Below are positions 1,726 through 28,389 of a stretch of DNA of 64,000 nt, in pieces (within the stretch, counting starts at the first letter, position 1; every line of letters starts with the position of its first letter). The stretch is taken from contig JANQQA010000150.1 of the NCBI GenBank assembly GCA_028285205.1, positions 1 to 64,000 on the forward strand, in the 5' to 3' direction. The DNA is from Bythopirellula sp. GTDB lineage: Bacteria; Planctomycetota; Planctomycetia; Pirellulales; Lacipirellulaceae. A program made the translations under genes and the position numbers. Under the pieces are notes generated by a model that ran no database searches, was not told where the DNA came from, and worked only from the letters and a program-made list of their open reading frames with translations.

Positions 1726-4700
1726 ATGCATCGATTGCTCTATCAGTTACTGCTAACGATCCTAATTGCCGTCGTGCCAGTGCTCGGCTCTGCGCAGACG
1801 ACATTGGATATCAGCATCTCGACGAACAGTGACGATGCCGAGGAAGATTCCGGCGCCGACGTCAAGCTGAACAACAGTAAGATTGAGCTCGGGCAAATGC
1901 CCTGGGCTGGCTTTCGGTTCCAAAACGTGACGATTCCGCAAGGCGCAACGATCACGTCAGCCTATGTCCAATTCAGAGCCGAGAGCTCAAACACTGAAAG
2001 CACCGACCTGACGGTCTTTGGTGACGATGCTGACAGTTCAGTAACGTTCAGTAACTCCAACAAACTCTCGACGCGTACGAAGACATCCGCTTCCGCTTCA
2101 TGGCAGAATGTCGCAAACTGGTCCGGTGGCAGCACGTATCAAACACCGGAACTCAGCGCCATCGTACAGGAAATTGTGGATCGGGGGGGTTGGTCGAGCG
2201 GCAACAGCCTGGCGATTCTCATACGCTCCGATGATGACAACGGCAAGCGGTTGCCTTGGGCGCGCGATGGCAGTTCGTCCAACGCGCCCGTATTGCACGT
2301 CGAGTATCTCTCCAGCACGACCTATTACGTTCGGCCGGACGGCAACAACAGTAACTCGGGAACCGGGTCTTCAGCGTCCGAGGCGTGGGCCACCGTGTCT
2401 TCCGCTGTTGACAAGGTAGCCATCGATCCCGGCGATCGGGTTTACGTCATGGCCGGCACGTATAACGGGAGTGTGACTCCGTCGATTGATGGTAGTGCTG
2501 GATCGCCAATTCAGTTCATCGCCGATACGGACGGGTCGATTTTTGGCAGCGCAGGCGAGGTAATTCTTGATGCTCCGGAAGAAAGTGACGCGCTGCAGAT
2601 CAGCTCCGACGACTATTTGGAATTCATTGGTTTCACATTCAAAGGCGACAACGATGAGGCGCAATCCGTTGATATCGACAACAGTACAGGCGTGAAGCTG
2701 TCCAAGTGTCGAATCTACAACGCCGGTGCGGAAGGCATTGATATCTACAACTCATCGGTCGAGATCATCAACTGCCAGATTTACGATAACAGCTCCCACG
2801 GCATCGATATCAGCGGCAGTTCTTCGTCGGTAACCCTATGGAATTCGACGATCGCTGATAACGGATCTGACGGGGTGCGCGTGTCGTCAGGTACGACGAC
2901 GATCACTAACTCCATCCTTGCACTGAATGGTGATGATGGATTCGACCGCGATGGTGGCACGCTCACTCATACGTACAACATCATCTACGGAAACTCCGGT
3001 TCTGGCTTTGAAGGTACTTCGCAGAGTACAGGGGAGCTGACCAGCGACCCGCTGTTCTTTAATGCAGGCGGATTCGATTTTCGATTGCAGGACGGGTCAC
3101 CAGCCATCGATGCGGGCACGAACGCGTCTGGCACCGTAGATGATGATTTCAATAGCGACGCGCGACCCATCGACAGCCTGTGGGACCTCGGTTGTTACGA
3201 AGGTGCTGGAGGCAGCAGTTCCGCAACGCAGATTTATCTGTCGACCCTTGGCAGTGCAACACTCGGTAGTCAGTCGTTTAACGATGAAGATGTGGTTGAC
3301 TACAACTCCGGTAGCGGCACGGCATCGATACTCTTCGATGGTAGCGCAGTCTTTTCTAGCGACGAGGACATCGACGCCGTTCACGTGCGTTCCGACGGCA
3401 AGACCCTGCTTTCAACCATCGACTCCGCGACGATTGGGAGCCTGAGTTTCAATGACGAGGACGTGATTGAGTATGACCCTGGCACAGGTACTGCGACGAT
3501 GTTTTTCGACGGCAGTACCGTGTTTTCCAGTGACGAAGATCTTGATGCGTTCTTTCTGAAGTCCGATGGAAAGATGCTCATCTCGACGACCGGGTCCGCG
3601 ACGATCGGAAGCTTAAGTTTCAATAACGAGGATGTCGTCGAGTACGATCCGAGCACAGGTACTGCCACGATGTATTTTGACGGCAGCACGATCTTCTCCA
3701 GCGATGAGGATGTCAACGCAGTAGCATTGCTTGATAGCGGAAACATCGTGATTTCGACGACCAGTTCCGCCAGTATCGGAAGCCTCAGTTTCGGCGACGA
3801 TGATCTCGTTGAATACAATCCAGGTACTGGTGTGGCAACCATCATTTTTGATGGTGGGGCGAGCTTTTCAAATTCAGATGAAGACATCGATGCTGTTGCC
3901 TTCGTTGAAACCGTTTCGCCAACGCTGACAACGGGCATCTGGAAACTCGATGAAGCAAGTGGCACGACCGCGGCGGATTCGTCTGGGGAAGGCTTGGACG
4001 GAACCTATACCAATGGCGTAGCGATCAACACCAGCGGGCCCTATCCAGGCACTGGTGCGGTCGCAGCCAACTTCGACGGCACGGATGACCATGTCGATCT
4101 GCCGGATATGAATTTCGACTTCTCACAGGGTTTCAGCGCCGCGTTCTGGTTCAACCCAGCCTCCACGCCGGCCGTTGAGGCAGACATGCTGGGAATCAGC
4201 AATGGACAGGACGTCGACGACATTTGGATTGGCTGGCTTCCAGGAACGGGATTGGAACTCTACTTCAGTGATACCGTCGATAGTGCCTCGTTTCGATGGC
4301 TTGATGACAACGTCGAACCGGAAGTGGGGAGATGGCAGCACTTCGCTGCCACAGTGGATTCGTCGGGCAATGCAAAGATCTATCGCAACGGAGTCGAGGT
4401 TGCCAGCGGTTTTGTCAGCTTGCCGGGCAACGTGGACCGCACTGAGAACTTCATTGGAACCAGTGTTTGGAATGAACCCTTCGATGGTCAGATGTTTGAT
4501 GTGCATGTCTACAACAGGGAACTTAGTGCTTCCGAGGTGGCGGACTTGTATGGCTTGGTAGGTCACTGGGCATTCGATGAAGGAGCCGGCACCACGATCG
4601 CGGATTCCTCTCTGAATGCGAACGATGCCTCATTCAACACCGGAGCGCCGGCCTGGGTTGATGGAATCTACGGGACGGCTCTGGAGTTTGACGGATCCAA

Positions 4701-6193: not shown

Positions 6194-8749
6194 ATGAATA
6201 CCCTGACGATACCTGCTCTCTCGCTTGGTTTTTCGACGACGTTTCATGGAGTTCTTGCGGCAAATGGCACAGAGATGGCAAGCCGCGCCATTCCACTTTG
6301 GTGGCATGCAACGTGGATCTGTGCAGTTATCGCGTTGTTCAGCGCGCTGCGATTCTATCGCTGGATTATCCAGCAGGGCGAAGGCAATGAGCGGATGCAA
6401 GAAATCGCACAATATGTGCGCGAAGGTGCCTACGCCTACCTGCACCGCCAGTACCGCGTAGTGGCAGTGTTCTTCGTGGTCGTCTCAGTGCTGTTGGCAC
6501 TGATGGCTTTTGGGCTCAACGTGCAACACAAACTTGTGCCGTTTGCCTTCCTAACCGGGGGATTCTTTTCTGGCCTCGCCGGGTTTTTCGGTATGAAGAC
6601 CGCCACCAGCGCTTCGGCGCGGACCGCCCAGGGAGCGAGTAACTCGCTTGATCAAGGTTTGAAAATTGCTTTTCGCGCCGGAGCCGTCATGGGCCTGACT
6701 GTGGTCGGCTTGGCCATGCTCGATATCAGCTTGTGGTTTGTCTATCTGTACAAGTTCCATCATCTGATCTTCGGCGGCGAGCCGATGAGCCTCGAAACCA
6801 TCACGGTCGTGATGTTGTGCTTCGGGATGGGGGCCTCGTCGCAGGCGTTGTTCGCCCGTGTTGGCGGCGGCATCTACACGAAGGCCGCTGATGTCGGTGC
6901 GGATCTAGTGGGTAAGGTTGAAGCAGGGATCCCTGAAGACGATCCACGCAACCCAGCGACGATCGCCGACAACGTCGGCGACAACGTGGGCGACGTGGCG
7001 GGCATGGGTGCTGATCTCTACGAGTCGTATGCCGGGTCGATCCTGGCGACGATGGCGTTGGGGGTCGCAGCCGTTAGTTTCGGCGGAGTACCCACCGGCT
7101 TCGACGACGAGTTGACCGCCCAGATGGCATTCATCGGTGCACCGATGGTGCTGGGCAGTTTGGGAATCTTGTTGTCGCTCGCAGGTGTGTTCCTGGTGAC
7201 CACAAAAGAAGGCGCATCGATGAAGGAACTGATGTGGTCGCTGAACAGGGGCATCTGGGGCTCGAGCGGACTCGTGGTGCTAACAGCCATGATCGTGCTA
7301 CCCATGCTGCTACCCGCGAGCATTGCCTGGGGAGTGGTTGTGGCGGTGGTCGTCGGATTGGCTGTCGGGCTGATCATCGGCTACGGCACCGAGTACTACA
7401 CGAGCGCGGAATACAGCCCCACCACGGGCATCGCTAATCAAGCCGTTTCGGGAACTGGGCCCTTGATCATTGATGGAATCGCCGCCGGTCTCATGTCCGC
7501 ATGGATTCCGATCGCGGCTGTGTGCTTGGGCATGATGGTCGCGTTCGGCGTTTGCGACGGCTCCGAGAATCTCGCACTCGGGTTGTACGGCGTCGGCATG
7601 GCGTCCGTCGGTATGCTGTCGACCTTGGGAATCACGTTGGCCACGGACGCGTATGGTCCGATCGCCGACAACGCCGGCGGAAACGCTGAGATGGCGGGCC
7701 TGCCCAAAGAGGTCCGCCAGCGAACCGACGCGCTCGATTCATTGGGCAACACAACGGCAGCCATCGGCAAAGGGTTTGCGATCGGGTCCGCAGCGCTGAC
7801 TTCGTTGGCGCTGCTTGCCGCGTATGTGGAAGAAGTACGCGTCGGCATTCATCGCGAGGCCGCCGATGCCTACGAAATCGTGGAAGGTCAGCCCTACACG
7901 GCAGTCGATCTCGGGTATGGAAAGTACGGAGTGTACCTACCTGGTGCCGACGCCAGCCATGAGGAGGGCTACACGATTAGCGCCTTCCGGAGCAAGTCGG
8001 ACAATGCCGTGAAGCTTCCCATTGGCAACAAAACGGTTGCGGTCCTGGTAAACCAAAAAGGTACCGCCGTGCCGAAAGACGGAGCCGATCCGAGCGTGCA
8101 GCAACTCGTCGATTCGAAGTCGGCAGGCTTGTTTGATTTCATGGAATACTACCAGGTCACTTTGATGAATCCCAAAGTACTGGTCGGCACGTTTTCGGGC
8201 GTGCTGATGGTGTTTGTGTTTGCCGCGATGACAATGAAAGCGGTCGGACGGGCGGCAATGGCAATGGTGGAAGAAGTACGTCGTCAGTTCCGTGAATCGC
8301 CGGGGATCATGCTCGGCACCGAGACGCCCGACTACGCGCGGTGCGTGGCAATTTCAACGGCCGGCGCTCAGCACGAAATGGTTCGTCCGTCACTGCTGGC
8401 GGTCACTGCTCCGGTGGTTGTGGGTTTGCTGCTGGGAGTGAGCGGCGTATTAGGTCTGCTTGTCGGCGGGCTGTGCGCCGGCTTTGCGATGGCCGTGTTC
8501 ATGGCGAACGCTGGTGGGGCGTGGGACAATGCCAAGAAGCTGATCGAAACGGGCGAGCACGGCGGCAAAGGGTCCGACGCCCACAAGTCGGCCGTGGTGG
8601 GTGACACTGTCGGCGATCCGTTCAAAGACACAACTGGACCGTCGCTCAATATCCTGATCAAGCTGATGAATATGGTGAGCATCGTGTTCGCTGGGCTTGT
8701 GGTGAAGTTTGCGCCGGCGATCGCCTCTTTCCTGGGCATGGGCCAGTAA
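6194..8749 (+). CDS. hppA: Membrane-bound ion-translocating pyrophosphatase, K+-dependent type, with extra loop
   Basis: This enzyme hydrolyses cytosolic pyrophosphate and pumps H+ or Na+ across the membrane. The catalytic core is plain: GADLVGKVEAGIPEDD then RNPATIADNVGDNVGD (about 235-268), EYYTSAEYSPT, DNAGGNAEMAGL, and a late GDTVGDPFKDT. In the helix that sets potassium dependence the sequence is GNTTAAIGKGFAIGSA (about 518). The alanine after TTA, rather than lysine, is the signature of K+-dependent enzymes. The protein is 851 residues; most family members are about 670-770. Much of the excess is a soluble insert of about 80 residues (within 550-645) between two membrane helices. The N-terminus also carries an extra hydrophobic segment. 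It is monocistronic or paired with the next gene, 36 bases on. Confidence 0.95.
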   Translation: MNTLTIPALSLGFSTTFHGVLAANGTEMASRAIPLWWHATWICAVIALFSALRFYRWIIQQGEGNERMQEIAQYVREGAYAYLHRQYRVVAVFFVVVSVLLALMAFGLNVQHKLVPFAFLTGGFFSGLAGFFGMKTATSASARTAQGASNSLDQGLKIAFRAGAVMGLTVVGLAMLDISLWFVYLYKFHHLIFGGEPMSLETITVVMLCFGMGASSQALFARVGGGIYTKAADVGADLVGKVEAGIPEDDPRNPATIADNVGDNVGDVAGMGADLYESYAGSILATMALGVAAVSFGGVPTGFDDELTAQMAFIGAPMVLGSLGILLSLAGVFLVTTKEGASMKELMWSLNRGIWGSSGLVVLTAMIVLPMLLPASIAWGVVVAVVVGLAVGLIIGYGTEYYTSAEYSPTTGIANQAVSGTGPLIIDGIAAGLMSAWIPIAAVCLGMMVAFGVCDGSENLALGLYGVGMASVGMLSTLGITLATDAYGPIADNAGGNAEMAGLPKEVRQRTDALDSLGNTTAAIGKGFAIGSAALTSLALLAAYVEEVRVGIHREAADAYEIVEGQPYTAVDLGYGKYGVYLPGADASHEEGYTISAFRSKSDNAVKLPIGNKTVAVLVNQKGTAVPKDGADPSVQQLVDSKSAGLFDFMEYYQVTLMNPKVLVGTFSGVLMVFVFAAMTMKAVGRAAMAMVEEVRRQFRESPGIMLGTETPDYARCVAISTAGAQHEMVRPSLLAVTAPVVVGLLLGVSGVLGLLVGGLCAGFAMAVFMANAGGAWDNAKKLIETGEHGGKGSDAHKSAVVGDTVGDPFKDTTGPSLNILIKLMNMVSIVFAGLVVKFAPAIASFLGMGQ

Positions 8750-13931: not shown

Positions 13932-15062
13932 ATGTCCCAACAGCGTTGCTATTACGAAGTGCTGGAGGTCTCCAAGACCGCATCGGATGGCGAGATCGCC
14001 ACTTCGTATCGTAAGCTCGCCGTGAAGTATCATCCGGACAAGAATCCGGGTGACGAAGAAGCGATTGCGCACTTCAAAGAGGCCTCTGAAGCGTTCGAGG
14101 TGCTCAACGATCCCGACAAACGCCAACGCTACGACCGCTACGGACACGCTGGCGTCAACGGCCAATCGGGTGGCGGCGGGTTCTCCGACGTCGAAGACAT
14201 CTTCTCCGCGTTTGGCGACATCTTCGGCGATCTGTTCGGCGGAGGTGGCGGACGAGGTCGTCGTCGGGTGCGTAAAGGACGTGACGTGCGATGCGACATC
14301 ACGCTCACACTGCAAGAAGCGGCCCAAGGCGTCCGCAAAACCGTTCAGTTCCAGCGGCATGAACCGTGCCTCAAGTGCCAGGGTTCTGGGGCTGCCGAAG
14401 GCAGCCAGCGCGAGACATGTTCCTACTGTGGCGGACATGGCCAGGTTGTCCAGCAGGCAGGCATCGTGCGTGTGCAAACGACCTGCCCAGCGTGCAAGGG
14501 CGAGGGCTCGTCGGTCAGCACACCGTGTCGGCCGTGTCGCGGTTCGGGACACATCCTCAAGAAAGTGGAAGCCGAAGTTGAAATCCCCGCCGGCGTGGAC
14601 GATGGCATGCAGGTGCGGATCACCGGACAGGGCGAACCCAGCCCCAACGGCGGACCGCCGGGCGACTGCTACTGCGTGGTCGCGATTGCCAAACACACGT
14701 TGTTTGAGCGCGAAGGCCAACACCTCATTTGCCGTGTGCCGATCACCTATTCGCAAGCTGCGCTGGGCACCATGCTGGAAGTGCCTACCCTCAACGGTCC
14801 CGGCGAAGTCGACATTCCACCCGGCACGCAGTCGGGCGATGTCTTCCGTCTCAAAGGGCAGGGCATGCCCGACCCCAGGATGGTCGGACTAGGTGATTTG
14901 CTGGTACAAGTGAACATCGAGGTTCCCGCGAAGGTGAGTAGCGAGGAAGAAGCGTTGCTTCGCCAACTGGCCGAACTAGAACACAAAAACGTTGCTCCCC
15001 AACGCAAAGGTTTTTTCGATAAAGTGAAAGAGTACTTTAGCCCCGACGAACAAGAAGCTTGA
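13932..15062 (+). CDS. dnaJ: Chaperone DnaJ (Hsp40)
   Basis: This stimulates the DnaK ATPase and delivers substrates. The J-domain starts [14 protein letters not shown] with the essential HPD at residues 34-36. A Gly/Phe-rich linker ([20 protein letters not shown]) follows. The zinc-finger domain has four CxxCxGxG repeats: [24 protein letters not shown] and CRPCRGSG. The C-terminal substrate-binding domains are complete, for 376 residues in all. Just 14 bases separate it from grpE. No dnaK is in the window, so the Hsp70 partner is encoded elsewhere. Confidence 0.97.
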
Positions 15063-20815: not shown

Positions 20816-21655
20816 ATGATCGAAAACGCACCTGTGCAAACGCTGGAGCATGCGGGCCTCACCATCGAGGGGTATTCGCGCGCGGCCGTCCAGAGCTACT
20901 GGCGGATTCCGGAGTTGAAGCTCGGCTTCGATCTGGGTGGGCAGCCGTGGTCGTTCATGGGCACCGAAACCTGGTTCATCTCGCACGGTCACCTTGACCA
21001 TATTGTTGCGTTGCCCGTTTACGTGGCGCGGCGGCGCATGATGAAGATGGATCCACCGACGATCTACATGCCGGAGGCAACGATCGAGCCGATGCAGCAC
21101 ATCCTGCGCAACTTCACGCGTCTCGACCGAGGACGCATGCCTTGTGAAATGCGAGCAGCGCGGCCAGGCGACGAAATCGAGCTGTCACGTGAGTTGGTGG
21201 TCACTGTCTCCGAGTGCAAGCATAGTGTGCCGGCGCTGGGTTTCATCGTGTGGGATCGCCGCCTGAAATTGAAGCCAGAGTATCAGGGACTTGCCGGCGA
21301 AGAAATCCGCGATCTACGCCTTGCGGGTACGGAAGTCTCCGCCGAGCATCGCACCCCGCTGCTCGCCTACGCAGGCGACACGGCACCAGCAGGGCTCGAC
21401 AACTGCCCCGAGATGTACCAGGCCAAGATTCTCATTTGCGAGATGACGTTTGTGTCGCCCGAGCATCGCAAAGAAAAAATTCACAAGTTCGGCCACATGC
21501 ACCTCGACGATTTCGTCGACCGCCAAGACAAGTTCAAAAACGAATTAGTGATCGCCTCACACCTAAGCACGCGCTACCACCCCAACACGGTGCGCCGCAT
21601 GGTCGAAAAATCCCTACCGGGCATGCTTGACGATCGACTGAAGTTGTGGCTGTGA
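20816..21655 (+). CDS. Metallo-beta-lactamase-fold hydrolase, RNase Z-like
   Basis: The ATG at 20816 gives 279 residues; GTG at 20771 would add 15 more. The metal motif SHGHLDH lies near residue 56, followed by a conserved His (KHSVPALGF), an Asp (YAGDTAP) and a final His pair (HLSTRYH). This pattern fits the RNase Z/TRZ1-like branch, which trims tRNA 3' ends. The encoded tRNA-Ser in this window lacks CCA, consistent with need for such an enzyme, but substrate is not proven. It has its own promoter region shared with the divergent metalloprotease. Confidence 0.75.
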
Positions 21656-21991
21656 CTGCGTGTCCCGGCATTTGCGCTACCAGGGGCAACTCCGACTGAG
21701 GCTATACTGCAAGCGAGCTGCGGAAAAACGACGTCGGGCGTTCTCACCGACGGCGGTTACGGCAGCAGAATTTGGGTGATCATTCTAACAGAGAAGGTTC
21801 ACACCGACGCGCGCATCTCAGATTGAGAATTGCCTAAAGCGATAAACACGATTGGTAGAGTCGAGGCAAATCCCTACGTTGTACGAGCCGCTGGGTCGAA
21901 GCCTCGAACGGCACCCACTAACAATTACAAATCGCCGTGTGTAAAGTTCGATCCAGTGATGACTAACTCTCCGTTTCGCTGCTTACCTCAG
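21656..21991. other. Intergenic stretch, no supported gene
   Basis: No motif-bearing ORF is found. A + strand ORF (21830-22222) is a shadow of the gene on the other strand. Base composition becomes more AT-rich than the flanking core genes from here to about 24.9 kb. Confidence 0.45.
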
Positions 21992-22465
21992 CTATTCAGG
22001 TCTACAGCCCTTCATAAAGCTATCCAACGACGCGGCAGCCTTAAGACCGCTGACTTCTCTGAATTCAAGGAAGTCCGCCGCTTCTTCTACGTCTTCGTCG
22101 GTGCGACCAGCTTCAATCAGTTGTCTTATCACCCAGGCAGACAGATGAAAATACGAATCGAACACTTCTGGATTCTGTTCTGGTACGTCTTCAATATGCT
22201 GGCTGTGGAAATGGCCGGTTGAGGGTTCAAATGCTACTGAGGACGTGCCATTACACGTCCAGACTGGAACATAATCATCTTGTAGCGGCCATACGCCACT
22301 GGGACATGGCGATTCGCAACGGAACTCCAACGCGTAGGGGGCTTTACCCATCGCAATTTTTACCAACGGCTCAGGCAAGCCAAGTTCACGCATTCGGGAC
22401 GCTAGTTCTTTAATTGTAAAGTCAGTCCGCCAGTCTGACGGATTGTCACTGATGCGAATTGCCAT
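21992..22465 (-). CDS. Orphan hypothetical protein, 157 aa
   Basis: A cytoplasmic-looking protein with no signal peptide, beginning MAIRISDNPSDWRTDFTIK. The middle has the pattern YVPVWTCNG then TGHFHSQHIEDVPEQ, followed by a predicted helix. That layout is reminiscent of SUKH/SMI1-type immunity or nucleic-acid-associated proteins, but the match is too weak to assign. It is the first of four small orphan genes separated by hairpin repeats. Confidence 0.6.
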   Translation of the reverse strand: MAIRISDNPSDWRTDFTIKELASRMRELGLPEPLVKIAMGKAPYALEFRCESPCPSGVWPLQDDYVPVWTCNGTSSVAFEPSTGHFHSQHIEDVPEQNPEVFDSYFHLSAWVIRQLIEAGRTDEDVEEAADFLEFREVSGLKAAASLDSFMKGCRPE

Positions 22466-22606
22466 CGGCTTTCTCAGATAGAATGAATTACCTGTCAGTT
22501 ACTGGACGACGATGCCATTTGCTACCGTCATTTAGATGCGGCATGTTCCGTTTGGAGGTCTAACACATATCGGAATAGGTTACACGAATTCATTGTCGAC
22601 CAGCGC

Positions 22607-22660
22607 AGTTTTTTCGGAATCCAGTTTCCAGCTGAGGAGGGACTCACCTCTTTTGGAATC
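22607..22660 (+). repeat. Hairpin repeat, copy 1
   Basis: The 24 bases at 22607-22630 are identical to 23155-23178. TTCCA (22626-22630) pairs with TGGAA (22654-22658), and an inner stem GAGG (22634-22637) pairs with CCTC (22647-22650). The loop core is GGGACTCA. It lies between the 157-aa gene and the 134-aa gene. Confidence 0.8.
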
Positions 22661-22719
22661 GGCGAGTTGCCGGGCTGCCTCAGCATTTCACGCTGAGCCA
22701 ATCTAGTCGATCATGAGTT

Positions 22720-23124
22720 TTGCGAACGCTCACCGTAAAACATATAATACTGAAATCGGAAACTCGCGGCTCAATCCGTTCGGGACCCTTCAACTTGACT
22801 ATTCGCGACACTTTCATTCATGCAGTCAGGAAATGCAGCAATATTCCGGTTGCTGTTCGCAACGCTGCATCGCTGGCAATCGCAATTGAACAATCATCGT
22901 TTGATTCAACTTATATTGATTTTCTGACACAACAGATAGAACTCAATGCACGCGGAGATGAGTGGTCAAAGCGTCTTAATGAACGTAAATTAGGGCTCGC
23001 GAAATGGTGTGACATTGCATTGATTGATGGAAGAATCGAGTGCGGTCCTGACGACTACACAGTTTACGTTGACCCAGATTCGCAAACGGTAGTTTACTGG
23101 GAGCATTACGCCGACGTTCGTTAG
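22720..23124 (+). CDS. Orphan hypothetical protein, 134 aa
   Basis: The start is uncertain: TTG at 22720 gives the longest frame and no good ribosome site is seen; an ATG at 22713 opens a different, short frame. The product is predicted soluble, with a helical middle (NAASLAIAIEQSSF) and a beta-rich end (CGPDDYTVYVDPDSQTVVYW). No family was recognised. Codon use is AT-richer than the core genes. The 3' end lies 30 bases before repeat copy 2. Confidence 0.5.
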   Translation: MRTLTVKHIILKSETRGSIRSGPFNLTIRDTFIHAVRKCSNIPVAVRNAASLAIAIEQSSFDSTYIDFLTQQIELNARGDEWSKRLNERKLGLAKWCDIALIDGRIECGPDDYTVYVDPDSQTVVYWEHYADVR

Positions 23125-23154
23125 TTCACGCTGCCAGGATTCGTCGTCTTGTGT

Positions 23155-23208
23155 AGTTTTTTCGGAATCCAGTTTCCACAGGCGGTTGGACTCGCCGATT
23201 GTGGAATC
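23155..23208 (+). repeat. Hairpin repeat, copy 2
   Basis: It is 54 bases, the same length as copy 1. TTCCACA pairs with TGTGGAA, and an inner stem GGCG pairs with CGCC. The loop contains GGACT. A trailing CGCTAGTTTCC follows, comparable to CGGCGAGTTGCC after copy 1. Confidence 0.8.
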
Positions 23209-23425
23209 CGCTAGTTTCCAACGGCTTCATGGGAGTGATCGATGTAGCCGACCGCGCTTCGAGAACCTTTGCTGACTTCGCTGGTTCTCAACGCTGCACG
23301 CTAGAATTATGCTAGTCACATTGCAACCGTTATTCGACAGATACTAAAATTCAATTTTGGTCATTCGTGACATCTCCAAGTACGCGTGGAGATTTCCTGT
23401 TAGCGATCCCAAGCAGGAAAACCGT

Positions 23426-23902
23426 ATGATGCGTCAATCTTCAGGACGGACTTCGCTATTGGGCTACTACAGTTTGCGAACACTGTTGGCGGTCACGGCA
23501 GGTATCGCGTTTGTAGCATTCATTGCCAGATGGATGCTTACATTCGATGAGTCGCGCCTCTATCCGATGTTAAGGCTCGCACTGTTCCTTTTACCGTGGG
23601 CAATCGGTTCTTTCCTTGGGATTGCCATTGCAGCTCGATATCAACGTAGTTCGTTACTGGGAGCTATCTGCGGCGGCATCTTGGGAGCGTGGCTATGCCC
23701 CGGGCTACCGTTTGTGTATTCCTACGCGAACGGACTACACGGGGTGAGAAGCTTGTCGCTTGTTGGTGAACAACTTGCCTTTGCTGCGTGTGGTAGCGGG
23801 CTCCTGGCGGGCATTGTCGGCATATTACGAGAGGGTATTACACTACGTTCCAAAGCGGAAGGTCAGCCCGATATGGCTGATGATGCTAAACGAGAGGCTT
23901 AG
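23426..23902 (+). CDS. Small integral membrane protein, unknown (158 aa)
   Basis: ATG at 23426 is chosen because CAGGAAAACC precedes it; the longer frame from TTG 23357 lacks a site. There are four hydrophobic segments, several of them Gly- and Ala-rich (SLLGAICGGILGAWLCPG), and a basic/acidic cytoplasmic tail (SKAEGQPDMADDAKREA). No motif was recognised. It is flanked by repeat copies 2 and 3. Confidence 0.65.
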   Translation: MMRQSSGRTSLLGYYSLRTLLAVTAGIAFVAFIARWMLTFDESRLYPMLRLALFLLPWAIGSFLGIAIAARYQRSSLLGAICGGILGAWLCPGLPFVYSYANGLHGVRSLSLVGEQLAFAACGSGLLAGIVGILREGITLRSKAEGQPDMADDAKREA

Positions 23903-23990
23903 ACGCGCACCTACGAGATTGATACTTGCCGTCACATGATCTGCACGTTGATGAGTGCGGACCGGAACTGCTTCAGCTTCATCGACATGT

Positions 23991-24046
23991 GTATTATTCT
24001 CGGAATCCCAATTCCACAAGAGGTGGGACTCGCCGATTGTGGAATC
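23991..24046 (+). repeat. Hairpin repeat, copy 3
   Basis: ATTCCACAA (24011-24019) pairs perfectly with TTGTGGAAT (24037-24045). The inner GGTG/CGCC stem is retained, with loop core GGACT. CGGAATCC precedes it as in copies 1 and 2. It is followed eight bases later by a second, related hairpin. Confidence 0.8.
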
Positions 24047-24054
24047 GTCGAGCA

Positions 24055-24091
24055 GATTCCAAGGTAGAAGGTTCACTTCGACTTTGGAATC
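24055..24091 (+). repeat. Hairpin repeat, copy 3b (tandem variant)
   Basis: GATTCCAA (24055-24062) pairs with TTGGAATC (24084-24091). An inner GAAG/CTTC stem with loop GTTCA replaces the GAGG/CCTC or GGCG/CGCC stems of the other copies. It is the same design with different bases and lies between copy 3 and the 3' end of the 184-aa gene. Confidence 0.7.
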
Positions 24092-24118
24092 TGGTTTCGC
24101 AATTCTAGCCCACAAGGG

Positions 24119-24673
24119 TTATTTCTCGGCGTGCCGTTGCGCCTTTTTTGCCGTGTCTTTCTCTCCATCAGCGGCGGGCACTTCTTTGGGCTCGAATACA
24201 CTCTGCACTGCGTCTTCAAACAACAGTTTGGTCGTTGCGTTCACTTCCTCTTGAGTTATTTTTCTGTCAAGCCATATGAAGATTAGCCTCGAGTCAGATG
24301 CCTGAACAGCGTATCGGTCCTCTTCATTCCTCCAAACTGTAACGCCCCATTTGGCCATCTCGCCATCGGGGTCCCGTGACCATTTCTTATGTGTAAGATT
24401 GACACACTCGACTATCGATTCAAAAGTGACCGAGTCCGGATAGGTGGCCATAATGCCGTAAATTCTCGGTCCATCAAGGTCCAAATGTATGTTCTTCGGG
24501 TAAATGGCATTCTCTCCCACGTTGCTCGTCTGAAGCGGTGATTCAGTTCCAAGTTTCGTTCCAAGAATTTTGGGATTGGGAATAACTATATCTGTGCGAG
24601 CATGGGCTTCTGAGAAATGTGTGAGTGCATTTGTCAGAAGCATAGTCCCGCCGAGTAGCAAGTATCGAATCAT
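24119..24673 (-). CDS. Orphan secreted hypothetical protein, 184 aa
   Basis: It begins with a signal peptide (MIRYLLLGGTMLLTNAL, cleavage near AHA-R). The mature part has a mixed alpha/beta pattern (FESIVECVNLTHKKWSRD, then WGVTVWRNEEDRYAVQ and LIFIWLDRKITQEEV) and a lysine-rich end. No family was recognised. It faces copies 3/3b at its 3' end and copy 4 lies 122 bases beyond its start. Confidence 0.65.
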   Translation of the reverse strand: MIRYLLLGGTMLLTNALTHFSEAHARTDIVIPNPKILGTKLGTESPLQTSNVGENAIYPKNIHLDLDGPRIYGIMATYPDSVTFESIVECVNLTHKKWSRDPDGEMAKWGVTVWRNEEDRYAVQASDSRLIFIWLDRKITQEEVNATTKLLFEDAVQSVFEPKEVPAADGEKDTAKKAQRHAEK

Positions 24674-24795
24674 AGGAATAGCCTTCTCGTCGATGTCTTA
24701 AAGGAGTTCACGGCATGAACGACGCACGTTAATAGTTCGCCTGCACTGGCTCTGTCTTACCGAAGTTCTAGTGTACCCGAATCAGAAGCAAATTC

Positions 24796-24852
24796 CGTTT
24801 CTCCGGATCCAGACAGATTCCACAAAAGTAGAGACTCGCCTCCACTGGAATC
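24796..24852 (+). repeat. Hairpin repeat, copy 4
   Basis: GATTCCA (24816-24822) pairs with TGGAATC (24846-24852). The loop keeps GAGACTCGCC. CCGGATCC stands where CGGAATCC is in the other copies. It is the most diverged copy; the trailing TGCGACTTCC parallels the tails after copies 1 and 2. Confidence 0.65.
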
Positions 24853-25105
24853 TGCGACTTCCTAATTGCCGGCGGTGAATCCAACCGACCGGATTCTGGG
24901 AAGCGTGATGCCGTAGGGAAGTGATGCACCCGCCTTGGCACTGGGCCGCGCCCGGCCAAAACTTGTCGTGGAATCGGCCGGGGCAATCTCTAAAATGAGT
25001 GGGGCTGCGGTGTGGCTTGCCTCTAAGTGCAAGTAGTGTCCGGCGGGAGTTTTGCTTGCGCTATCTCATGGCCTGAAGCTATAAAAACAGGGGTGCGGCG
25101 GAGGG
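24853..25105. other. Intergenic stretch after repeat copy 4
   Basis: No supported gene is found. It contains the sequence GTGGCTTGCCTCTAAG near 25011 and leads into the two-stem structure at 25106-25155. Small minus-strand ORFs here lack motifs. Confidence 0.4.
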
Positions 25106-25243: not shown

Positions 25244-26089
25244 CTACCGACGGCCTTTTATTAGCCCAGGCACGACATAGGCGGCGAAGCACGCGAGCAT
25301 TAATGACGATGGCTCGGGGATGCGCGCGGTTGCAGCTTGTAGCGGAGCAACGTCTGAGCCTGACTGCTGTTGCCAGATTAGAAAGTCGGCTCCGTTGCTG
25401 GCGAGGTTTCCGTCGGCATCGCCGTCTGAGTAATTGGCCGGACGCCGCGAATGGCCACTTTGCCAGATCGCGAGATCCGCCAGGTCAACGTCCTGATCCA
25501 GATCGAAATCGGCAAGGTAGCGCTGATAGCGGAATTCACCAACGTTCAACTCACTGGCGCCTGCCCCAGTGAAGGTAACGTCTGCTCCCAAGATGGGGCA
25601 TGGCAAGACGACGCAAAACACGTCGTTGGGATCGACGCTGCTGAACAGCGAGAGAAAACTCCCACCCTGATTCACGTACTCAAAACTCCAGTTGCGAATC
25701 CTACCTGCGGAAGCCCCGACTTGCCGGGTCGTGAGAATCCCTGACTGTAGTGTCGTGTCACCGGAAAAATTGAGAGCATGCTCTGAGATGAATCCATTGT
25801 CAAACCCGAACATCACTTGCAACACCGAGGGTTGATCGAACTGCGCGACGAAATTTTCGACGTTGTCGAAGCGCGTCTCCTGGCCGTTGGCGGTGGCCGC
25901 GATATGTTGGTCGTCAAACAGGAGATAGCCGCTTCCTCGACTCTCTGCTTCCGGAACCCAGACATACCGAATTTGCGCCTGGCAAGCTGACAAGTCCCCG
26001 AACAGGAGCCAGCAACTGAACACAGCGAGCAGTGTACTACCTCGGCGCAGCTGAGCGGAGAAGTGCGTGACGGGCAGGTGGCTGTTCAT
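25244..26089 (-). CDS. Exported protein with dockerin-like repeat and PEP-CTERM signal
   Basis: An N-terminal signal sequence (LLAVFSCWLLFGDLSACQAQ) leads into an unrecognised beta-rich domain. Residues about 193-245 look like a dockerin-type calcium-binding pair: DFDLDQDVDLADLAIWQSG, then DGDADGNLASNGADFLIWQQ. The last 28 residues are IPEPSS, a hydrophobic helix (LMLACFAAYVVPGLI) and KGRR, a PEP-CTERM signal. It is therefore expected to be sorted by an exosortase. It is the second PEP-CTERM protein in the window, with the haloperoxidase-like gene at 1-762. Confidence 0.85.
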   Translation of the reverse strand: MNSHLPVTHFSAQLRRGSTLLAVFSCWLLFGDLSACQAQIRYVWVPEAESRGSGYLLFDDQHIAATANGQETRFDNVENFVAQFDQPSVLQVMFGFDNGFISEHALNFSGDTTLQSGILTTRQVGASAGRIRNWSFEYVNQGGSFLSLFSSVDPNDVFCVVLPCPILGADVTFTGAGASELNVGEFRYQRYLADFDLDQDVDLADLAIWQSGHSRRPANYSDGDADGNLASNGADFLIWQQQSGSDVAPLQAATARIPEPSSLMLACFAAYVVPGLIKGRR

Positions 26090-26126: not shown

Positions 26127-28187
26127 CTACTTCACCTGCACCACGTTGTTGTTGTAGTGACCAACCGTCTCGGGATTGCCCTGATCGTTGCGCCAGTCGG
26201 TGCCATTGAGGACGAACTTGTATTCGTATTCACCTGGGTCGAGTGGCATCGCGAGTGTGTAGAGACCCTCGGCATCTGGGCCAGCCAGTTGATCTTGCGT
26301 TTGGTGCCAGTTGTTGAATGTGCCAGCGACGTGCACCGTCTCGACGGCGTCTGTCGGGCGGTAACGGAAGTGGACGAGGTGGCGGCCGTCGGCCGTCGTT
26401 TCGACGCGCGGTGGGCCGAGGCGGAGATCTTGATCGGCTCGGCTCATCGTGATCGATCCGAGCATCATTTCCTGCCAGGTTTGATCACCCCAGAGGACCA
26501 TCGCCGTCGGGTCGGGATTGAGCAAGTTATCGGCGGAGTTGTCGAAATGGGCTTCCATCTTGATCTTGGTGCCGGCGGGCATGTGCTTGGGTTCGGCCAA
26601 CATGTAAACGTTCTGCCAGTTGAAATCGTAACGAGGCACGTCCAACAGGATTTCGGTCGACTCGTCGGGATAGTGCGCGGTGAAGCGGAACGACTTGCCC
26701 CGATAGTGCATGTGCGGGGTGAGCGTGTAAATCAACGAGTCGTGCCCGAAAGAATAGCTGGCATCGACGCGGTAGTCCTCGACCCCTGGTGGAATCGCGA
26801 AGCGAAAATTCAAGCCCGCCTGATTGATGAATTCCTTCTCGACGTTCTTGGCATCGGTAAATACCAGGCCCACCTCGCTGCGGTCTGTCTGTGGGCTGCC
26901 GTTGGGGGTGTAGTGCATTTGGAAACAGAGCCGCGAGCCCGCCGGGATCCGCAGAGCTAGGTTATCTGGCCCCATGACGGCGGGCATCCCCGGCGCGAAT
27001 GCAGCCACAATGTTGAACAGCGGATCCTCTGGGCGATAGGTCTCTTGGCCAGGCGGAATGTAGAACAGGATCATGTGATGCACCACGGCGCGATTGTCGG
27101 GGCGAGCCTCCGAGCCGATGACCCACTTGTCTTCAGTAAAGCCGGGGTCGAACACAAAGTGCTGGTAGTCGACGACGCCCTTGGCCGGCACTTCAAAAGC
27201 TTCGGGCATTTTGAAGACCACATCGGGCTCGGGGATCCGCCAGCCTTCGGCAAACTCACGTGGTGCGGGCAAGTTGTGCGGATCGCCTTCTGGAAGACCA
27301 TTGGCGACCCACTGAGCGAGTAGCTGTTTGTCTTCGTCCGGCATGCGCGCGTCGTTGAGGAACTTGCCGTGATCGGGATTCGCGTGCCACGGCGGCATAC
27401 GACCATCCGCGATCACTTCGAGCATGGTTTCCGACCAAGCCGCAACTTCGTCGTACGTGGAGAGCGCAAACGGCGCGATCTGGCCGTCGCGGTGACATTC
27501 GATGCAATGCTGCTGCACGATGCGCGAGATCTGATTGCTGTAGGTGATATCGCCATGAGGCTCGACCGGATTGGGTCGACTGATCAAACAACCGACGGCC
27601 GTGGTCTGGGCCGCGAGGATCGGTTTGTCAGCGAGCAGGCTGTCGAGTGCGTTGGCCAAATCGCGAGTCGTCGGCTGGCCGCGGGAATAGCCGACGCCGT
27701 ACTGGTCGTCGATGCGACCCCAATAGCGGATAGTCTGTTGGTCGTCGAGAACATACGCCTCCGGTGTGCGTGTGGCCCCGAGTAGATCGGCAACACGGCA
27801 GTCGGGGTCTTTCAGCAGCGGGAACTCGATCTTGTGCACACGGGCGTAGTGGGCCATCTCGACGAGCGTGTCCTGCCGATTAGCGTTGATGCCGACGAAT
27901 TGCACGCCTTGTGGCTCATACTTCGCAGCCATTTCTGCGAGCCGTTGGCCATAAAGCTTCGCCAATGGGCACTCCGTGCCCAGAAATACCACCACGACTG
28001 CGCGTTTGTCGTGCCAATCAGCGAGCGAGTGCGCAGCCCCCAGATAGTCGTCGAGCGTGAAGTCTGTTACCTGCGATCCCACCGCGACAGGCGTTTCGCC
28101 CCGCAGCCTCGGCTGGGATTCGGCCAACACAGCGGAAGCTGGACAAATTAGGCAGGCCAGCAATATGCTGAGACGAACGTGCAACAT
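26127..28187 (-). CDS. Redoxin / cytochrome c / copper monooxygenase-like / AMPK-CBM48 fusion protein
   Basis: The start at 28187 is chosen because it begins a signal peptide (MLHVRLSILLACLICPASAV) behind CCAGGA; 28220 is an in-frame alternative. The 686 residues carry, in order: a peroxiredoxin/TlpA-like domain with TECPLAKLYG (about 70); a heme c-binding CIECH (about 225); a domain resembling type II copper monooxygenases with HHMILF (about 367), QMHYTPNG and HMHYRGKSF (about 490) as possible copper ligands; and a C-terminal glycogen-binding-like domain with VAGTFNNWH (about 602-686). It is exported. The heme-before-copper order suggests an oxidase-like periplasmic enzyme whose substrate is unknown. 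Confidence 0.75.
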   Translation of the reverse strand: MLHVRLSILLACLICPASAVLAESQPRLRGETPVAVGSQVTDFTLDDYLGAAHSLADWHDKRAVVVVFLGTECPLAKLYGQRLAEMAAKYEPQGVQFVGINANRQDTLVEMAHYARVHKIEFPLLKDPDCRVADLLGATRTPEAYVLDDQQTIRYWGRIDDQYGVGYSRGQPTTRDLANALDSLLADKPILAAQTTAVGCLISRPNPVEPHGDITYSNQISRIVQQHCIECHRDGQIAPFALSTYDEVAAWSETMLEVIADGRMPPWHANPDHGKFLNDARMPDEDKQLLAQWVANGLPEGDPHNLPAPREFAEGWRIPEPDVVFKMPEAFEVPAKGVVDYQHFVFDPGFTEDKWVIGSEARPDNRAVVHHMILFYIPPGQETYRPEDPLFNIVAAFAPGMPAVMGPDNLALRIPAGSRLCFQMHYTPNGSPQTDRSEVGLVFTDAKNVEKEFINQAGLNFRFAIPPGVEDYRVDASYSFGHDSLIYTLTPHMHYRGKSFRFTAHYPDESTEILLDVPRYDFNWQNVYMLAEPKHMPAGTKIKMEAHFDNSADNLLNPDPTAMVLWGDQTWQEMMLGSITMSRADQDLRLGPPRVETTADGRHLVHFRYRPTDAVETVHVAGTFNNWHQTQDQLAGPDAEGLYTLAMPLDPGEYEYKFVLNGTDWRNDQGNPETVGHYNNNVVQVK

Positions 28188-28389
28188 CGTACGGATTCCT
28201 GGAGAAGTGGCGGCAGGCAAACCCGAGTATATCAGATATCGATGCCCAGGCTGTTTTTCACCGCTACTTTCTCGACGCCTAACAATCGCCTAGTAGTTTG
28301 GCGTGAATTCGGCGCTACAAGCGACTTATCGACTAGGGCGCAATCCGGATCAACTTGTTACCGCTAGCTTTCCAAACTGGGAGTTCCAC

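Follow-up and report, generated by a model that had tools for sequence, protein, structure and literature searches.

The hairpin repeats in a 64,000-nucleotide stretch of Bythopirellula sp. DNA (positions 1 to 64,000 of JANQQA010000150.1, assembly GCA_028285205.1; hereafter the window, i.e., the whole stretch that was analyzed) may be the joints of horizontally acquired gene arrays, whose unit would be a small gene with a hairpin-rich site, placed head to tail as integron cassettes are. We give this reading a probability of roughly 45%. An inspection of the letters alone (the sequence-only reading) had described five hairpin copies in the window as a family selected for folding; the observation is real and more interesting than five hairpins, for a reason other than the one given then. 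The array and its surroundings comprise the following features, with bit scores from the family model introduced below.

20816..21655, plus strand: left flanking gene B, metallo-beta-lactamase fold (Pfam)
21733..21835, plus strand: degenerate left-most array site, hairpin GTCGGGCGTTCTCACCGAC with half hairpin TTCTAACAGAGAAGGTTCAC (sequence)
21992..22465, minus strand: array gene c1, 157 aa, without Pfam family (ORF; Pfam search)
22594..22696, plus strand: site 1, copy 1 of the sequence-only reading (83.2 bits; repeated tract)
22720..23124, plus strand: possible array gene c2, 134 aa, without Pfam family (ORF; Pfam search)
23137..23225, plus strand: site 2, copy 2, core GGACTCGCC (87.9 bits; repeated tract)
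23357..23902, plus strand: array gene c3, up to 181 aa, without Pfam family (ORF; Pfam search)
23963..24052, plus strand: site 3, copy 3, core GGGACTCGCC (78 bits; repeated tract)
24053..24098, plus strand: second hairpin of site 3, copy 4, core GGTTCAC (z = -7.0; inverted repeat)
24119..24673, minus strand: array gene c4, 184 aa, without Pfam family (Pfam search; search for relatives)
24783..24865, plus strand: site 4, copy 5, core AGACTCGCC (34.2 bits; repeated tract 24807-24865)
25244..26089, minus strand: gene D, 281 aa, without Pfam family (ORF; missing between B and E in two congeners)
26127..28220, minus strand: right flanking gene E, redoxin-type protein (Pfam; adjoins B in the congeners G012 and G007)

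The coordinates and sequences reported for the five copies were correct, the outer TTCCA...TGGAA stem occurs in all five, and copies 1 and 2 have the 24-base block AGTTTTTTCGGAATCCAGTTTCCA in identical form. The two motifs said to be common to the copies hold in part: copies 1-3 carry the leading CGGAATCC unchanged, copy 5 has the altered form CCGGATCC, and copy 4, which stands back to back with copy 3, lacks it; an unchanged core GGACTCGCC occurs only in copies 2 and 3, with GGACTCACC in copy 1, AGACTCGCC in copy 5 and GGTTCAC in copy 4. The TTCCA..GGACTCGCC pattern is present twice in the window vs. 0 in 100 shuffles, and so would not arise there by chance. Site 1 consists, in order, of a leading arm, a hairpin with the core GGACTCACC and the hairpin CTCAGCATTTCACGCTGAG; the stem of the second hairpin of site 3 is almost perfect, and site 4 is partly degenerate and followed by the hairpin GCGGTGAATCCAACCGACC. 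The left-most site has a repeat in common with 24056-24082 and contains the repeated tract 21782-21835 of the array comparison.

The cores of copies 2-5 fold better than shuffles (z = -2.7, -3.0, -7.0, and -3.1, respectively), as a family of structured RNAs or terminators between genes might be expected to do, and copy 1 does no better than shuffles (z = -0.45). The inner stem was said to change base by base while keeping its pairing; across 23 aligned copies, however, 73.0% of the cells pair, the same 73.0% as with shuffled partners, and the covariation score of that stem is 0.088 vs. 0.089 shuffled. The own arms of 33 hairpins fold no better than random arms (p = 0.24), RNAalifold gave zero pairs changed on both sides, and a scan of all five-pair helices in 29 sites revealed no credible covariation, the one window above the shuffle maximum being 45% paired and outside the hairpin. 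The four inner stems quoted are in different registers (that of copy 2 is 3 nt off copies 1 and 3), so that a short match can often be found, while the TTCCA/TGGAA arms are nearly invariant and therefore uninformative on covariation in either direction. The apparent compensatory changes of five hand-picked repeats thus disappear once the whole family is counted, and covariation as a sign of selection on folding is left unsupported by the pairing, arm-swap, and helix-scan tests. Rfam gave no match for the sites, even at a permissive threshold, terminator-like motifs in the region occurred at the shuffled level and none lay at the sites, and the genes are of mixed orientation relative to the sites, all of which makes an RNA or terminator family very improbable. 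The equal orientation of the sites, the orphan genes and the synteny of the flanking genes argue for the punctuation of acquired gene arrays rather than for a conserved folded RNA. The inner arms look randomly combined, and reassortment accounts for the missing pairing no better than independent mutation of unconstrained arms. Nor do the arms within one putative (circular) unit pair better than random arms, and when a Mantel test was used to look for a breakpoint in the loop, even the within-arm control failed.

That the five copies belong to a genuine repeat family with many further genomic copies, mostly beside short genes, as the sequence-only reading had expected of a mobile or functional family, was confirmed by BLAST with copy 2 (43 matches in the 7.9 Mb assembly) and by a covariance model, which at a cut-off of 28 bits or more detected 49 non-overlapping sites on 17 contigs and, having only six pairs, is essentially a sequence profile. 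The repeat tracts are mostly 60-190 bp long in an all-against-all comparison and each contains several imperfect hairpins or palindromes, with loop cores in common, among them GGGACTC, GGTTCAC, GTTTCAC, and GGATTCAC (grouping by eye). Since several arrays of sites reach contig ends (C54:242, C345:89, C360:30740-31403, C52:14811), the assembly probably breaks within arrays, so that the count of sites is too low. A DDE_Tnp_1 (IS4-like) transposase gene was noticed at C141 (L040:10680-11514), and the matching terminal sequence was also seen at L037:13975-14002 (C52) and L031:50-76 (C333). At all three places this terminal sequence abuts family hairpins, within or beside a GGACTC or TTCATCG loop, as though hairpin loops were the target of the element. 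The left half GAATGGCGTTTAG... was considered as a foreign arm and rejected, as it adjoins a DDE-transposase gene, whose element it probably terminates. Three right half-sites (L031:6866, L040:6035, L044:8912) are joined to a common but unrelated left half, GCG(C/T)GCATCGAAGGGACTC, which may be the terminus of a further inserted element.

The arrangement of the sites is what points to joints of gene arrays. Neighboring pairs less than 4 kb apart number 29 vs. 1.2 expected, the median gap between neighbors is 981 bp, and 25 of the 29 pairs are equally oriented (p = 5e-5); in C333, plus sites extend over ~7 kb and are followed by minus sites over ~12 kb. Among 28 between-site intervals, 15 contained one gene, 12 none and one four (i.e., at most one gene in 27/28), as counted with a simple caller for which "none" means that it accepted none. 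Nearly every gap within the arrays holds a site and the neighboring DNA holds none. GC content is ~50% in the array and 56% in the remaining window. The array genes with a Pfam match (42 genes, 46 families) have few families in common, and for one with DUF1963, a search of the 395 other sampled genomes of the order at E 1e-35 recovered no homologue.

In the window, the gene c4 has relatives in only two of the 96 other genomes searched, and c2 has a weak coding score and was rejected by the gene caller. The left flanking gene B is present in 48 of 49 genomes, and the distance between B and E is 283 bp in G012 and 45 bp in G007 vs. 4.5 kb here. As B and E are adjacent in these two congeners, the window array was either gained here or lost in both, and its low GC and orphan content favor the gain. 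Gene D, with a PEP-CTERM-like C-terminus, lies within the inserted stretch and has no site to its right. This evidence of insertion (the empty site) concerns the window array; the flank of array C268, sought as a second empty site, had too few homologues.

Searches of 147 relatives, 396 genomes of the order and 392 of the phylum, samples that overlap and whose strict filters in the large searches could miss weak relatives, recovered further sites only in G029, a member of the same family, where two hairpin-rich sites surround a single gene between housekeeping genes. GTDB and viral contigs gave 58 and 2 matches in a 17-mer scan; these were discarded, as the model did not find them family-like. 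Three copies of a different palindromic repeat, GTTAGCCG..CGGCTAAC, lie near the site pair of G029 (L145:535-604, 2953-3028, 6905-6975). Another hairpin repeat of the genus is found in G011, in which long imperfect palindromes, GTGAGCCGCACGGCGCTAGCCGC..., lie near intI (L169:8225-8450, 14180-14340).

The main rival is a passive mosaic repeat like the NIMEs of Neisseria, i.e., palindromic intergenic sequences of the NIME, BOX or REP type, self-spreading or transposase-borne, that accumulate in islands of foreign genes. Genes would be swapped there by ordinary homologous recombination between the repeats, and no dedicated cassette system would exist. We regard this as a tentative alternative with perhaps one chance in three. 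The sites are in fact mosaics of hairpin modules, sometimes back to back with no gene between them (copies 3 and 4; L043:9963-10132), isolated single sites occur (e.g., C102, C125, C26), and the NIME arrays of Neisseria likewise stand beside single genes, with a presumed role in promoting gene exchange (PMC3898611). Inserted repeats would, however, be expected in random orientation and REPs in alternating orientation, whereas the sites are mostly uniform, and the confinement of sites to nearly every array gap also speaks against it. With NIME/dRS3 the sites have in common the rows of ATTCC..GGAAT-like inverted ends between genes, the mosaic structure and the link to gene exchange, but their loops measure ~20 nt vs. 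8, they lack the CGTC tag, are uniform in orientation and number ~49 vs. nearly 700 dRS3; the form ATTCCC(N8)GGGAAT with RS elements was not found, the TTCCA/TGGAA arms of the aligned copies standing ~20 nt apart by reading. REP/BIME sequences with RAYT are similar in being short intergenic palindromes, in the TTCAC of some loops and in transposase remnants abutting loops, but the sites here are fewer and longer, the foot of 24 hairpins carries hardly any tag (GTAG 0, CTAC 1, CGTC 1, GACG 0), and none of the four Y1-transposase loci of the genome has a family site beside it, so a cognate, adjoining Y1 transposase is missing. BOX elements of Streptococcus are also intergenic repeats of interchangeable hairpin modules, but are scattered insertions, and PMC3049150 does not present them as joints in arrays of orphan genes.

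Joints of acquired arrays, the reading that we prefer, bring the sites close to integrons and CALINs, with which they share a tandem arrangement (per unit, one palindromic site and about one small gene, mostly of unknown kind), a single site orientation, and orphan, lower-GC genes; this layout is what was found. They differ in site sequence and architecture, as well as in the absence of attC R boxes, the lack of a detected IntI, a mixed gene orientation that most integron cassettes do not have, and many separate arrays. The sites could nevertheless be divergent or decayed attC sites, i.e., a CALIN whose integrase was lost, is encoded elsewhere or lies in the unassembled part of the genome, which we consider unlikely. 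Besides the layout, it is favored by the frequency of IntI in this order (above the TIGR02249 cut-off in 26 of 147 relatives, congeners included), by a broken intI in G029 (G029:C1:4568414-4569298, with an in-frame TGA stop, ~3.1 Mb from the hairpin sites of that genome), and by a relative of c4 in G022 that stands immediately after an attC-like stretch (R'' GTCTAAC, L boxes GTTGGCA/TGCCAAC, right GTTATTG), itself located after a gene pair that by eye resembles a toxin-antitoxin module. This one case is a hint of a common pool for array genes and integron cassettes. Against it, RYYYAAC...GTTRRRY boxes with paired L boxes numbered 0 in the arrays, and a relaxed AAC...GTT test recovered 3/24 sites vs. 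15-17% shuffled, i.e., the background level. The same box scan picked up attC in the congener G006, at both of its intI loci, and at 0/6 other intI loci, and is thus specific, not sensitive; canonical-looking attC attributes are visible near intI in G006, G016, and G029. No IntI above the cut-off was found in this genome (assembly 93% complete), the best matches being XerC/D-like. As the attC test failed, we did not file the sites under integrons; the system looks like known integrons without matching them. The resemblance of DUF7453 array genes to a gene near intI in G011 was set aside, because the local repeats there are unconvincing as attC and an Xer-like gene lies between. The dif modules of Acinetobacter plasmids also hold single genes between short recombination sites, but those described here are long, rich in hairpins and share one orientation, and XerD-arm-like matches (5 of 48 strands vs. 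a 4.75% background) gave no clear signal.

Were the sites joints of this kind, gene-plus-site units would be gained, lost and joined by recombination between them, most likely through a recombinase that would act in trans on the folded or palindromic site; none going with the sites was found in the genome. A bolder proposal, which we rate as rather doubtful, is a non-integron gene-cassette capture system in planctomycetes, with multi-hairpin sites whose loop cores are of the GGGACTC/GGTTCAC type, a putative trans-acting enzyme and orphan-gene arrays at many chromosomal places. Even if passive, the sites make up a family of mosaic repeats associated with islands of orphan genes, and the literature searched gave no report of it. 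If they are active joints, they would represent a second, integron-like bacterial route for amassing single genes, with the arrays as a reservoir of unexplored proteins.
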